A DNA stretch of 64,000 nucleotides. Origin: Mesorhizobium loti (lineage in GTDB: Bacteria > Pseudomonadota > Alphaproteobacteria > Rhizobiales > Rhizobiaceae). Where the stretch lies: the NCBI RefSeq assembly GCF_013170705.1, contig NZ_CP033334.1:5557501-5621500 (forward strand), read 5' to 3'. This document shows, in pieces, positions 11,063 to 13,547 of this stretch. Within the stretch, counting starts at the first letter, position 1. Every line of letters begins with the position of its first letter. A program made the translations under genes and the position numbers. The notes below the pieces were generated by a model that was given only the letters and a program-made list of their open reading frames with translations, ran no database searches and was not told where the DNA came from.

Positions 11063-11137
11063 TTACCGGAGGCCAAAGAAGCTCAATATCGCCAACACGA
11101 TGACTATAGCTCCAACGAGCCAGATGATGTTGTTCAT
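11063..11137 (-). CDS. 24-residue single-pass membrane microprotein
   Basis: A very short frame encoding MNNIIWLVGAIVIVLAILSF then FGLR, ending in TAA. Residues 3-21 form one hydrophobic helix closed by a C-terminal Arg. A strong ribosome site, GGAGAGAG, lies seven bases before the ATG, and an EcfG-type promoter (minus strand, 11273 to 11249) lies about 100 bases upstream, with a stem-loop in the leader. Together these support a real gene despite its size. Short one-helix proteins of this form are known in rhizobia and often escape annotation. Function unknown; membrane stress response or modulation of a membrane complex is speculation based on the promoter. Confidence 0.75.
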   Translation of the reverse strand: MNNIIWLVGAIVIVLAILSFFGLR

Positions 11138-11162
11138 GATCTCTCTCCTGTCGCCTGGGAAG

Positions 11163-11188
11163 CCCGCGCCTCTGGCGGAGGACGCGGG
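11163..11188 (-). other. stem-loop in the leader of the 24-aa gene
   Basis: CCCGCG-CCTC, a five-base loop, then GAGG-A-CGCGGG forms a ten-pair stem with one bulged base. It sits about 25 bases before the start codon of the 24-residue gene, between its promoter and ribosome site. There is no T-run, so it is not a terminator. It could affect translation or RNA stability. Confidence 0.5.
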
Positions 11189-11248
11189 CCGATCAGCCTT
11201 TGCCGGCCGATCTTCGGCAGACACCGAGGCGTCCGCCGCAGGGAGTAG

Positions 11249-11273
11249 AACTATTAGATGGGCCTAATGTTCC
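11249..11273 (-). promoter_or_regulatory. EcfG-type general-stress promoter for the 24-aa gene
   Basis: On the minus strand GGAAC (11273-11269) is followed after 16 bases by AGTT (11252-11249). This fits the GGAAC-N16/17-CGTT pattern recognised by EcfG sigma factors of Alphaproteobacteria, with one mismatch in the first base of the -10 element. It points toward the microprotein gene at 11137. Confidence 0.6.
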
Positions 11274-11448
11274 ACAGCATGGCAAGCCGGATGTTGCGAA
11301 TTTTCGAGTTCGGATCGTCGTGCCGACTGAACAAGCGCAACCGATGGATCGGGCCACTTCGAAAAGCGCCCTCTTCTCTCCCCCCGGGCACTGCGATCGC
11401 CCAAACTTCGACTGTCCAAAGGCATTCCTACAGCCTTGGGAAAACCCT

Positions 11449-11473
11449 GGAACCAAAGCGGCCAGCCGCAGTT
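11449..11473 (+). promoter_or_regulatory. EcfG-type promoter for the His-rich gene
   Basis: GGAAC at 11449-11453, a 16-base spacer, then AGTT at 11470-11473. It lies 41 bases before the ATG of the His-rich protein and has the same form as the other three sites in this island. Confidence 0.6.
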
Positions 11474-11514
11474 GTATCCACCGAAGGGCTATTCAAGTCA
11501 GTGGAGAAACTACA

Positions 11515-11802
11515 ATGAAAACAATGATCATGTGCGCTTTGGCGCTTTCCGTGGGATTGCCGGTCGTGGCCTCGGCCGCCGAGGCCGATGTGGTTATCAG
11601 GACCCACCATCGACACCACCACCAGGTCAGGATCATCAACGAGGATGGACAGCGCCTGCATCACCGTCACCACGGCACGGTCGCGTTCTATGACCATGGC
11701 CGCCGGTATCATCACCATCGTCGGGATGCCCTCGTGGTCAGCGGTTCCGTCTCCACACACCATCACCGCCATCCCGTGGTGATCGAGAACAGCGGCTACT
11801 GA
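11515..11802 (+). CDS. small secreted histidine-rich protein
   Basis: A 95-residue protein with a clear signal peptide (MKTMIMCALALSVGLPVVASAA, cleavage near residue 22). The mature part of about 73 residues holds 17 histidines, in clusters such as THHRHHHQ, LHHRHHG, RRYHHHRR and THHHRHP, together with many arginines. It has no cysteine. Such composition suggests binding of metal ions or polyanions in the periplasm, but I recognise no named family. GTGGAG precedes the ATG at a normal distance. The reading frame is open upstream to 11200, but the signal peptide, ribosome site and EcfG-type promoter all place the start at 11515. Confidence 0.8.
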   Translation: MKTMIMCALALSVGLPVVASAAEADVVIRTHHRHHHQVRIINEDGQRLHHRHHGTVAFYDHGRRYHHHRRDALVVSGSVSTHHHRHPVVIENSGY

Positions 11803-12102
11803 TAAGCAGCCGCTGGCCCGGCTCATCACAAGGAGTCGGGCCAACTCGGCTTTGTCCAGGGCCCTGACTGGGAACGGGATTCCAGTTTGCGGTTTCGTAG
11901 TGGGTTGGTCGCGGAAGTCCGTGCAATCCCACCACTTGTTGTGGAAGTTCTGATCGTTCAGCCCAACGCGTGACATGCCATTTTAGTGATGGCCGCTATT
12001 CAGCCCTTCTTCCACGCTGCGCGACGGTACTGGCCCATTCCCCTTCGCCTCGTTAGTCGCCGCTGAGCTTGACTTACCTATCGGCAGGCTGGGCCGCCAG
12101 GG
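11803..12102. other. intergenic stretch with one copy of a degenerate repeat
   Basis: No gene is supported here. It holds CGGAAGTCCG (11912-11921) and a 23-base segment at 11991-12013 that recurs with one mismatch at 12458-12480. In both places they occur in the same order after a GATTCC motif, so this looks like an old duplicated intergenic element. Confidence 0.45.
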
Positions 12103-12297
12103 TCAGGGGTGCGATCGGCGGCGTCTTTCGAAGATGTCGATCTTGCGGCTGTATGTCATCTGAATTTGATTGTCACAACCTTCACAGGTCAGAGACTTGA
12201 CGCTCTTTATCAGGCGGCCTTTACGGATCATCATTCGGTTGCATCGAGGACATTGGATCATCATGTCATCGTCATACCGGTCCGGTGAAAGTGCCAT
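12103..12297 (-). CDS. small CxxC-CxxC zinc-ribbon-like protein
   Basis: A 64-residue protein with two cysteine pairs, CPRC (Cys16, Cys19) and CEGC (Cys38, Cys41), spaced as in a zinc ribbon, followed by a basic C terminus (FERRRRRSHP-like end). The cysteine layout supports a real gene on the minus strand. A start at Met12 or Met13 is possible. I do not recognise a named family; similar small zinc-binding proteins are common hypothetical proteins in rhizobia. No EcfG-type promoter was found upstream. Confidence 0.55.
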   Translation of the reverse strand: MALSPDRYDDDMMIQCPRCNRMMIRKGRLIKSVKSLTCEGCDNQIQMTYSRKIDIFERRRRSHP

Positions 12298-12592
12298 ATT
12301 CGCCTCCCAATGATGCTGTGAAGCAACTTGCGTGCCGCATGGATATCTCGAATGTAATGTGTGGAGCGGCCAGCGTTAATCGAGCGTGATTTGTTGGTTC
12401 ACTATCCGCGATTCCGGCCTGGCATCGGGCTGGTGACGGAAGTCCGCGCAGGTGCGTGGCCGCCATTCAGCCCTTCTTCCGTTCTCCGATTTGAGACTGA
12501 GGGTTCGCTCGCCGCCATGGTAGCGGCGGGCGAACCCTATCGGCGCAGGAAGGGACGTAGCTGCGCCAATCTGCAAGACATTCGTGCTCGGG
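12298..12592. other. intergenic stretch with second copy of the degenerate repeat
   Basis: No gene is supported. It holds the second copy of the element seen at 11878-12013: GATTCC near 12409, CGGAAGTCCG at 12437-12446 and the 23-base segment at 12458-12480. This copy is about 60 bases shorter between the last two motifs. Confidence 0.4.
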
Positions 12593-12685
12593 TCAGCCAA
12601 GAGTTAATCCAATCGCCATGAAGGTGATGGCCACAGCGAAGATCAACGCGAGCAACCAGCGTGCTTGGTCAACACTCTTCTCCAT
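12593..12685 (-). CDS. 30-residue single-pass membrane microprotein
   Basis: A short frame reading MEKSVDQARWLLALIFAVAI then TFMAIGLTLG, ending in TGA. The first nine residues are polar and charged; residues 10-29 form one hydrophobic helix. GGAGGAAG stands four bases before the ATG, an almost ideal ribosome site. A perfect EcfG-type promoter (GGAAC-N16-CGTT) lies 27 bases upstream of the start codon on the same strand. These three signals make it a probable gene in spite of its length. No family is recognised and its function is unknown. Confidence 0.75.
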   Translation of the reverse strand: MEKSVDQARWLLALIFAVAITFMAIGLTLG

Positions 12686-12711
12686 CACTTCCTCCCGAAC
12701 ATGCAGCGGAC

Positions 12712-12736
12712 AACGACTGCGGACGGGGGCTGTTCC
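12712..12736 (-). promoter_or_regulatory. EcfG-type promoter for the 30-aa gene
   Basis: On the minus strand GGAAC (12736-12732), a 16-base spacer and CGTT (12715-12712) match the general-stress consensus exactly. The start codon follows 27 bases downstream, leaving a short leader with GGAGG. Confidence 0.7.
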
Positions 12737-12815
12737 GGGCAGAATCACCGGTAGGACCATTGCATTTTACAGCCAGACTTAAGTCCGGCGCCCTATCGGA
12801 CCGAAGCCCAACCAG

Positions 12816-12840
12816 GGAACGATTGCGCTTCGACCCTGTT
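12816..12840 (+). promoter_or_regulatory. EcfG-type promoter for the 12878-13547 unit
   Basis: GGAAC at 12816-12820, 16 bases, then TGTT at 12837-12840. It differs from the consensus only in the first base of the -10 element. It points to the two small genes that follow. Confidence 0.6.
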
Positions 12841-12877
12841 CGGTTGACTGGGCGCGAGGGCGATCAAGCGGAATTGG

Positions 12878-13105
12878 ATGAAAGTCACCATGTCGAACAG
12901 TGAGGCCGCAAGATCCGATGCATTGGGGACGCGCGTAGCCGACCTCAAGGCCAGGATGCAGCAAGCCCGGATTACCATGAGCGAAATGAAGACCTTCCAA
13001 AAGGTAGCGGCCATGATGGAAGACGGACAGGGCGGCATCGATGGCGACGATTTGATCGCCGCGTCCTTCGTGACCGACACGTTGCTCGACAAGGAAACGC
13101 CCTGA
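12878..13105 (+). CDS. hypothetical small protein
   Basis: A 75-residue soluble protein rich in Ala, Met and charged residues, with a helical middle (RVADLKARMQQARITMSEMK) and an acidic C-terminal part (MEDGQGGIDGDD). No family is recognised. The start at 12878 has CGGAA in front; the ATG at 12890 is an alternative. An EcfG-type promoter lies 38 bases upstream. The stop is four bases before the next gene, so the two form one unit, which suggests a stress-related role shared with the membrane protein that follows. Confidence 0.6.
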   Translation: MKVTMSNSEAARSDALGTRVADLKARMQQARITMSEMKTFQKVAAMMEDGQGGIDGDDLIAASFVTDTLLDKETP

Positions 13106-13109
13106 GACC

Positions 13110-13547
13110 ATGCGGACTATCAGCAGGCTTTTTGATTCCCATGCCGAAGCGGGCCGGGTTGCTGGAGAACTGGTGGCGGCTGGTGTTCCTCACGTTCAGA
13201 TTGCCATTATCGGCCCCTACCAGGATGAAGTCGGAGTTCTGAAGTCTCCGAGCGTCATTTTCGGTTTGGTCGGTGCGGCATTGGCGTGCCTTGGCGCCAT
13301 GGCCGTCTACGGTATCACTTCCCTTCAGGTCGGATTACCGGCAACAGCCGTGATTTGCGCGGTCTGTGGCGGTGCTGGCGGATTGATCGGCTCATTCATC
13401 ACGACTGCTGCCCAACCCGACGATCGGAGCGTCGCCGAGGGGATCGTCCTGGTGACGGCGCATGTCGATGAAAACAAGAGTGATATCGCCCAGACCGTGC
13501 TCCGCGGTGACGCCGACATGGCCGGGCTTGTCGCCGAGACTGCATGA
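13110..13547 (+). CDS. general-stress-type small membrane protein
   Basis: A 145-residue protein with the layout of the YflT/general stress 17M-like and DUF1269-like group. Residues 1-35 (RTISRLFDSHAEAGRVAGEL) form the N-terminal alpha/beta half found in those proteins. Two glycine-rich hydrophobic helices follow at about 50-68 and 74-98, and the C-terminal part IVLVTAHVDE returns to a beta strand. Family placement is by overall pattern, not by a signature residue. It follows the hypothetical gene by four bases and is probably driven by the EcfG-type promoter at 12816. Confidence 0.6.
   Translation: MRTISRLFDSHAEAGRVAGELVAAGVPHVQIAIIGPYQDEVGVLKSPSVIFGLVGAALACLGAMAVYGITSLQVGLPATAVICAVCGGAGGLIGSFITTAAQPDDRSVAEGIVLVTAHVDENKSDIAQTVLRGDADMAGLVAETA

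Follow-up and report, generated by a model that had tools for sequence, protein, structure and literature searches.

We analysed a stretch of 64 kb (kilobases) of the 6.87 Mb (megabase) single-contig genome of Mesorhizobium loti (G000:C1:5557501-5621500, called the window from here on), which carries an island of small genes between positions 11063 and 13547. The island contains four promoter sites of the type read by EcfG, the controller of the general stress response in rhizobia and other Alphaproteobacteria. We observed that these sites are conserved across Mesorhizobium, and that the first of them is followed by a previously unclassified three-hairpin RNA. Many genomes of the genus carry more than one copy of this RNA, and the small genes that it leads into are unrelated to one another. 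The reading that we favour, with modest confidence, is that of a conserved EcfG-type stress island together with an RNA family, some copies of which would act in trans through a C-rich loop, while others, as leaders, would hide the Shine-Dalgarno sequence of the gene behind them. The conservation of the promoters, the RNA family, its covariation and its classes of copy can be seen in the sequences compared. We infer the dependence on EcfG, the termination, the action in trans and the hold on translation. Loci are cited below by L numbers, and papers cited by PMC number were available to us in part, so that statements about them refer to those parts.

Four conserved promoters of the EcfG type

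The pattern GGAAC-N16-NGTT has four exact matches in the window, all within the island. They are listed here together with the palindrome that lies inside the first.

11249..11273, minus strand: EcfG-type promoter 1 (GGAAC-N16-AGTT), ahead of the 24-amino-acid microprotein and its leader RNA
11253..11268, minus strand: spacer palindrome ATTAG-N6-CTAAT, within promoter 1
11449..11473, plus strand: EcfG-type promoter 2 (AGTT), ahead of the His-rich protein gene
12712..12736, minus strand: EcfG-type promoter 3 (canonical CGTT), ahead of the 30-amino-acid microprotein gene
12816..12840, plus strand: EcfG-type promoter 4 (TGTT), ahead of the two-gene unit and divergent from promoter 3

EcfG promoters follow a pattern of GGAAC at -35 and CGTT at -10, placed 16-17 bases apart. 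All four window sites carry GGAAC and GTT, and one carries the full CGTT. The pattern search returned exactly the coordinates, strands and 16-base spacers that an earlier sequence-only reading of this DNA had given. That reading also had each site point at a nearby gene with a short leader, which holds for sites 2, 3 and 4 (41, 26 and 37 nucleotides (nt) from their genes) and not for site 1, where the gap is 111 nt. For four sites in 1,592 base pairs (bp), the Poisson probability is 2.9e-7 (from 223 sites in 6.87 Mb), or about 0.0025 over all windows of the genome, in a test whose NGTT form was picked after the sites were seen.

Orthologs were counted at 33 loci (the window, L073-L101, L031, L034 and L035); the count excludes L032 and L033, which duplicate L075 and L074, and the diverged loci L102-L112. 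An ortholog was scored as having a site if a match lay within 260 nt upstream. Site 1 was kept in all 24 orthologs of the 24-amino-acid gene that were found (distance 107-118 nt), site 2 in 28 of the 29 orthologs of the His-rich gene (39-42 nt), site 3 in 28/28 orthologs of the 30-amino-acid gene (23-30 nt), and site 4 in 26 of the 33 orthologs of the two-gene unit (35-55 nt). The reversed motif was present in none of the 114 upstream regions. The near-fixed ortholog positions and the empty reversed control decide the matter: the sites are real. The sequence-only reading had judged such a cluster unlikely to arise by chance and had proposed, as a check, to look in other Mesorhizobium genomes for conservation of the sites and the gene order. 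Both points were borne out, the one by the Poisson value together with the orthologous sites, the other by the near-fixed distances across the 33 syntenic loci.

Promoters 3 and 4 are spaced about 80 bp apart in most syntenic loci. Among the seven loci without site 4, no 30-amino-acid gene was found either in L095, L098 and L099; L082, L100 and L101 have a same-strand site farther off, and L083 has a near match. At L088 and L097 site 4 is present, with no 30-amino-acid gene at the threshold used. We also observed diverged relatives of the 145-amino-acid gene (the second gene of the unit) at other loci (L102-L106 and L108-L111), with EcfG-type sites upstream on both strands, so the promoter-divergent arrangement recurs. 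At L109-L111 these double-strand sites adjoin a relative of the 30-amino-acid gene.

A gene for NepR is present in the same genome (60.2 bits, over the model cut-off). Beside it are two genes that we named by position and reading, one ecfG-like (1608598-1609149) and one phyR-like. Nine exact GGAAC-N16-CGTT sites lie around these genes at 1606850-1614603; at nine in 8 kb, this was the densest group noticed among the 89 CGTT sites of the genome. Two further EcfG-like sigma genes (38% identity) lie elsewhere in the genome. EcfG (ECF15) promoters have been described as having AAC in the -35 and CGTT in the -10 element (PMC8103513, in the part available). The present system is like that regulon in its AAC at -35, its GTT in the -10, its 16-base spacing and its nepR with ecfG-like and phyR-like genes. 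It is unlike it in that the promoters of the RNA tend to a palindromic spacer and have CGTT in 0 of the 44 cases described below (compared with PMC8103513).

We further searched for relatives of the 24-amino-acid microprotein. With a relative at L116 as query, they turned up in 66 of 297 genomes of the order, which represent 27 of 122 genera (expectation value (E) up to 0.01), and at the same E in 12 of 240 genomes of the class, our own included. Among the 29 newly returned non-own loci that were examined from the 66 matching genomes, 14 had an EcfG-type site within 150 nt, 12 of them among the 26 loci outside Mesorhizobium; the reversed control gave 0. The class sample gave 11 matches outside the genus, one of which (L238) was excluded as no real relative; six of the ten true relatives had an EcfG-type site 25-46 nt upstream. 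CGTT was present in four of the six site-bearing relatives outside the order. The microprotein deserves attention as one that occurs in many Alphaproteobacterial genera, often under EcfG-type sites. The naming of the sites as EcfG-type promoters, made in the sequence-only reading, was upheld by the ortholog conservation, by the nepR locus with its similar sites and by the sites at these relatives across Alphaproteobacteria; at the level of sequence, control of the island by EcfG is well supported. Outside Mesorhizobium the gap from site to gene is 25-72 nt, too short for the present RNA. As these relatives have sites without room for it, the 24-amino-acid gene would seem to be an EcfG target of long standing in part of the class, to which Mesorhizobium seems to have added the RNA.

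A multicopy RNA behind palindromic promoters

Related sequences of about 96 nt were found 3' of palindromic sites, before different genes or before none. The sequence-only reading had been silent on both the structured RNA and the palindrome in the spacer of site 1. A model of the transcribed part only, without the promoter (R1), was built from 31 copies chosen by their promoter motif, and it returned 94 copies in 34 of 61 Mesorhizobium genomes, 1 to 12 per genome. Among 121 genomes of the family, R1 matched in one only, the window's own. A broader model (R2) had matches in 8 of 297 genomes of the order. In the window's genome R2 gave five matches at E up to 0.001. The window copy and the match at 4283209 have an exact EcfG-type site; at 1578852 TGAAC replaces GGAAC, and the two weakest matches have no site. 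The features of the window copy are as follows.

11157..11248, minus strand: three-hairpin RNA, leader copy (R2 match 11157-11247, 91.9 bits, E 3.5e-21, the sequence being partly in the model's own training)
11241..11248, minus strand: 5' pyrimidine tract CUACUCCC, the predicted partner of the Shine-Dalgarno sequence (minimum free energy fold and comparison of 27 leaders)
11142..11149, minus strand: Shine-Dalgarno sequence AGGAGAGA of the 24-amino-acid microprotein, predicted mostly paired in 24 of 27 leaders

No Rfam 15 family reached the gathering threshold for the window stretch and five other loci, and a known RNA family was rejected for these copies. A limited literature search turned up no multicopy EcfG-linked RNA that doubles as the leader of unrelated small genes.

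The RNA is closely tied to its promoter. An exact EcfG-type site lies directly upstream of 60 of the 94 R1 copies. Since the promoter motif had served to pick the training copies, a fairer figure comes from the copies not identical to training, namely 44 of 77 (about 0.04 expected from the genomic density of sites), some of the 77 being close relatives of training copies. The site was present in 30 of the 58 copies less than 80% identical to any training copy, and in 19 of the 28 that were less than 70% identical. In 59 of the 60 cases the end of the exact site falls between -2 and +1 nt relative to where the model starts.

The palindrome seen in promoter 1 recurs in these promoters. In the 44 non-training RNA promoters, spacer positions 7-10 are complementary to positions 20-17 in 24 to 33 cases each, and the outermost positions (6 with 21) match in just 6 cases; in a hand-picked comparison of 14 other sites of our genome, positions 7-10 were complementary in 1 to 4 cases. 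The RNA-linked promoter class may be written roughly as GGAACATTAG-N6-CTAAnnGTT. Of 297 genomes of the order, 4 had palindromic spacers of this class (at most one mismatch), at 2-3 places each; these 4 were all among the 8 of Mesorhizobium. Palindromic EcfG-type promoters were also seen before genes without the present RNA (L116, L117, L120 and L121), among them a relative of the 24-amino-acid gene (L116) and a 43-amino-acid hydrophobic open reading frame (ORF) (L120). These indicate that the palindrome goes with the promoter, not solely with the RNA; it is possibly a regulator site or an extended sigma contact.

We aligned the best 76 of the 94 matches and 6 copies from other loci, which gave 67 non-redundant sequences. 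The covariation alignment holds 54 of these; 13 poor aligners were taken out, four copies of the MKHQT type (see below) among them, so that no MKHQT copy is left in it. Three hairpins were found in the 54 copies, with 90.9% of cells paired vs 35 to 42% when partners were slid. Changes on both sides of a pair were seen at 14 pairs and in 103 cells, where shuffles gave 7.6 and 38.2 and none of the 500 reached the observed values, in a test that is weakened by the structure being drawn from the same 54 sequences and by shuffles that ignore relatedness. Pairing is least regular in hairpin 1 (82.1% of cells paired). The minimum free energy of the window copy has a z of -5.08, and that of L115 is 4.6 standard deviations below shuffles. 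Among orthologous copies with no clear gene behind them, two trios have hairpins 2 and 3 that are 97-100% identical, in flanks that are likewise well conserved (0.9-1.0), which makes this a weak test. A coding leader was ruled out on its lengths (107-118 nt), as such differences between species would break a frame. On the evidence above, the RNA family is well supported as real. With it, Mesorhizobium gains an RNA family that can be counted, that is marked by a recognisable promoter and that includes leader variants.

Classes of copy and possible modes of action

The 94 copies were sorted by the gene downstream: 15 precede the 24-amino-acid gene, 14 a gene of the MTDK type (53-amino-acid type), 9 a gene of the MKHQT type (141-143 amino acids), and 56 are others. 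A C-rich motif within bases 9-40 is present in 1 of 15 leaders of the 24-amino-acid gene, 12 of 14 MTDK copies, 0 of 9 MKHQT copies and 34 of 56 others; it was not found in the window copy. A run of at least three T right after hairpin 3 is present in 0/15, 12/14, 0/8 and 23/55 copies respectively (for 2 of the 94 the tail was not found). The leaders of the 24-amino-acid and MKHQT genes thus differ from the remaining copies, the former having no T run and nearly all being without the C-rich loop.

In 24 of 27 leaders of the 24-amino-acid gene the Shine-Dalgarno sequence is predicted to be mostly paired. Its mean unpaired probability is 0.20, vs 0.38 when the first 10 nt are randomised (p 1e-7, a generous value as the 27 leaders are related).

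The mechanism that we propose would run as follows. The four promoters would drive the 24-amino-acid microprotein, the exported-looking His-rich protein, the 30-amino-acid microprotein and the two-gene unit. On stress, EcfG or an EcfG paralog would be released and the promoters of the RNA cassettes would fire. Copies with the C-rich 5' hairpin and a T run would most likely end after hairpin 3, at least in part. The terminated C-rich copies could then act in trans on ribosome sites, in the manner of the small RNA (sRNA) GsrN, some of them (the MTDK type) preceding a small gene. In the 24-amino-acid leader transcription would run through, as there is no T run. Translation would be kept low for as long as the structure stays closed and no partner RNA intervenes, as the 5' pyrimidine tract can pair with the Shine-Dalgarno sequence.

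Several observations weigh against this mechanism. The MTDK copies precede an ORF, but most of them retain the C-rich motif and the T run, so that the split between sRNA and leader is not clean, and 32 of the 55 other copies have no T run of three. Strong pairing of the Shine-Dalgarno sequence with the 5' tract is predicted in 11 of 27 leaders, and vs whole-leader shuffles the effect is weak (0.20 vs 0.28, p 0.02, 27 related leaders). The fold of L114, one of three copies folded, is unremarkable (z -1.4). No R1 match was found in 27 of the 61 Mesorhizobium genomes, and 33 of the 77 non-training copies are without an exact site; in the 297 genomes of the order, R2 matches outside the genus were marginal, fell in 4 genomes only and had no EcfG site within 50 nt upstream. 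The motif itself is rarer in the genome than its backwards pattern (223 vs 318 sites for the NGTT form, 89 vs 142 for CGTT). Three of the four window sites deviate from CGTT, and none of the 44 non-training RNA promoters has it. The MTDK exception and the reversed control led us to lower our confidence in the mechanism and to raise it in a simpler account. There, the RNA is a structured 5' leader only (a cis element or attenuator), spread by gene duplication along with its promoter, and the copies without a gene are relics. We hold this to be a serious though less probable alternative. It accommodates the 38 of 94 copies that precede the three repeated gene types, the MTDK leaders that retain the supposed trans features, and some of the other copies that, by reading, have eroded-looking ORFs downstream. 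It fits less well with the T runs (23 of 55 other copies vs 0 of 15 leaders of the 24-amino-acid gene) or, weakly in view of their conserved flanks, with the near-identical hairpins 2 and 3 of the gene-less trios.

The missing CGTT bears on which factor reads the promoters. As it is absent from the 44 RNA promoters and from three of the four window sites, the sigma factor may be another than canonical EcfG. The palindromic promoters may instead be the targets of a non-canonical EcfG paralog, or a separate regulator may bind at the spacer; either would set the RNA apart as a sub-regulon. We consider this rather unlikely. The promoter pattern of non-canonical EcfG factors is still to be determined according to the part of PMC8103513 available, which leaves room for such a paralog. 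The two EcfG-like sigma genes (38% identity) in the genome would be candidates, and CGTT is present in 89 of the 223 genome-wide sites vs none of the 44. Against it stand the four of six site-bearing relatives of the 24-amino-acid gene outside the order that do have CGTT. That the four sites are a chance cluster and no promoters at all seems to us extremely improbable. Shuffled windows had a mean of 1.27 matches and reached at least four in 3 of 100, so that the total for the window is on its own a modest excess, and as the motif does not exceed the reversed pattern, chance may account for many of the genome's single matches. Such a cluster would not be kept upstream of 24, 28, 28 and 26 orthologs with a reversed control of 0/114.

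To our knowledge, few EcfG-dependent sRNAs have a known role. EcfG promoters, an EcfG-driven sRNA with a C-rich loop (GsrN) and RpoE2-dependent sRNAs are already known. GsrN is a sigma-T/EcfG-dependent sRNA of Caulobacter (Tien et al. 2018, PMC5869019); its BLAST homologs are reported from Caulobacteraceae only. Elsewhere GsrN-type genes were sought by proximity to ecfG, and they are near it in most species, C. crescentus excepted (PMC5869019, in the part available). By description, the present RNA is like GsrN in its EcfG-type promoter, its short structured form and the C-rich loop near the 5' end of many copies, and unlike it in having many dispersed copies, some of them leaders of messenger RNAs. 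Unlike GsrN-type genes, it also had no R2 match (E up to 1) in 19 kb around ecfG (L066). RpoE2 of Sinorhizobium meliloti has been reported to switch on seven noncoding sRNAs, the effect of which was not known (PMC6180224), so EcfG-driven rhizobial sRNAs are a kind already known. The present RNA is set apart from these in that no promoter-bearing R1 or R2 match was found outside Mesorhizobium in the genomes searched. The SmelA075-type anti-Shine-Dalgarno sRNAs of Rhizobiales have three similar CCUCCUCCC loops (PMC3927594). Hairpin loops with a CCUCC-like anti-Shine-Dalgarno motif are shared with these; the present RNA is of another architecture, by reading and as set against their description. 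The sRNA candidates of Mesorhizobium huakuii 7653R (PMC5596092) are of the same genus and include some unannotated intergenic RNAs; they are given in the part available as coordinates without sequences, and are likened by description only.

Island proteins and a second RNA candidate

The genes of the island are listed below.

11063..11137, minus strand: 24-amino-acid microprotein MNNIIWLVGAIVIVLAILSFFGLR, one hydrophobic stretch by reading
11515..11802, plus strand: His-rich protein of 95 amino acids, signal-like N terminus by reading, in 29 of 33 syntenic loci
12593..12685, minus strand: 30-amino-acid microprotein MEKSVDQARWLLALIFAVAITFMAIGLTLG, one hydrophobic stretch by reading, in 28 of 33 syntenic loci
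12878..13105, plus strand: 75-amino-acid protein, first gene of the probable two-gene unit, in 33 of 33 syntenic loci
13110..13547, plus strand: 145-amino-acid protein, second gene of the unit, with a hydrophobic middle

None of the island proteins came over the cut-off in Pfam or NCBIfam, and the dedicated envelope-stress module proposed in the sequence-only reading is therefore not supported. Weak matches to a type IV secretion system pilin, MreC and zinc ribbons lay below the cut-off and were dismissed. For the 145-amino-acid protein no Pfam family, plasmid match or credible PDB relative was found. It has 74% identity to mll7603 of M. japonicum, and among the matches listed with an organism name all were Mesorhizobium. 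Limited literature searches turned up no mention of mll7603 or of the string LSFFGLR from the 24-amino-acid microprotein. A zinc-ribbon-like ORF on the minus strand of the island (12103-12297) is present also in the closest relative, L073, and not in the other syntenic loci compared; it is perhaps a recent insertion.

Type I toxins such as TisB combine membrane depolarisation or toxicity with an antisense RNA. Set beside these, the 24-amino-acid microprotein shows small size, hydrophobicity and a structured leader, and it could conceivably be a TisB-like membrane effector.

In six genomes (L146, L148, L149, L151, L152 and L211) an RNA copy of the MKHQT type and a distant relative of the 145-amino-acid gene are about 3-13 kb apart, which suggests a second stress island. 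The MKHQT protein (143 amino acids, L220) has no Pfam family.

A fifth GGAAC-N16-NGTT site, on the minus strand, was seen in 13 of the 33 syntenic loci. It is absent from the window, and no ORF was found behind it. In L074 it lies about 630 nt past the start of the 145-amino-acid gene, and in the other twelve (L075, L076, L077, L078, L081, L084, L086, L091, L093, L096, L031 and L035) 540-632 nt past it. Behind it is a conserved stretch of about 75 nt that ends in a strong terminator-like hairpin (9 of 13 examined); one copy (L038) had no Rfam match over threshold. This stretch looks like a second EcfG-driven sRNA gene, and seven of the nine stretches examined contain GGAGAGAG. In some species this short RNA could serve, through GGAGAGAG, as a sponge for the CUCUCC loop. 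A broader and, in our judgement, improbable picture is that of a plug-in stress switch, in which a genus-specific cassette of promoter and RNA (sRNA copies, and leaders that silence unrelated microproteins outside the general stress response, so that one RNA family would couple stress transcription to the release of translation, with a possible GGAGAGAG sponge and a possible TisB-like microprotein) would have spread through Mesorhizobium.

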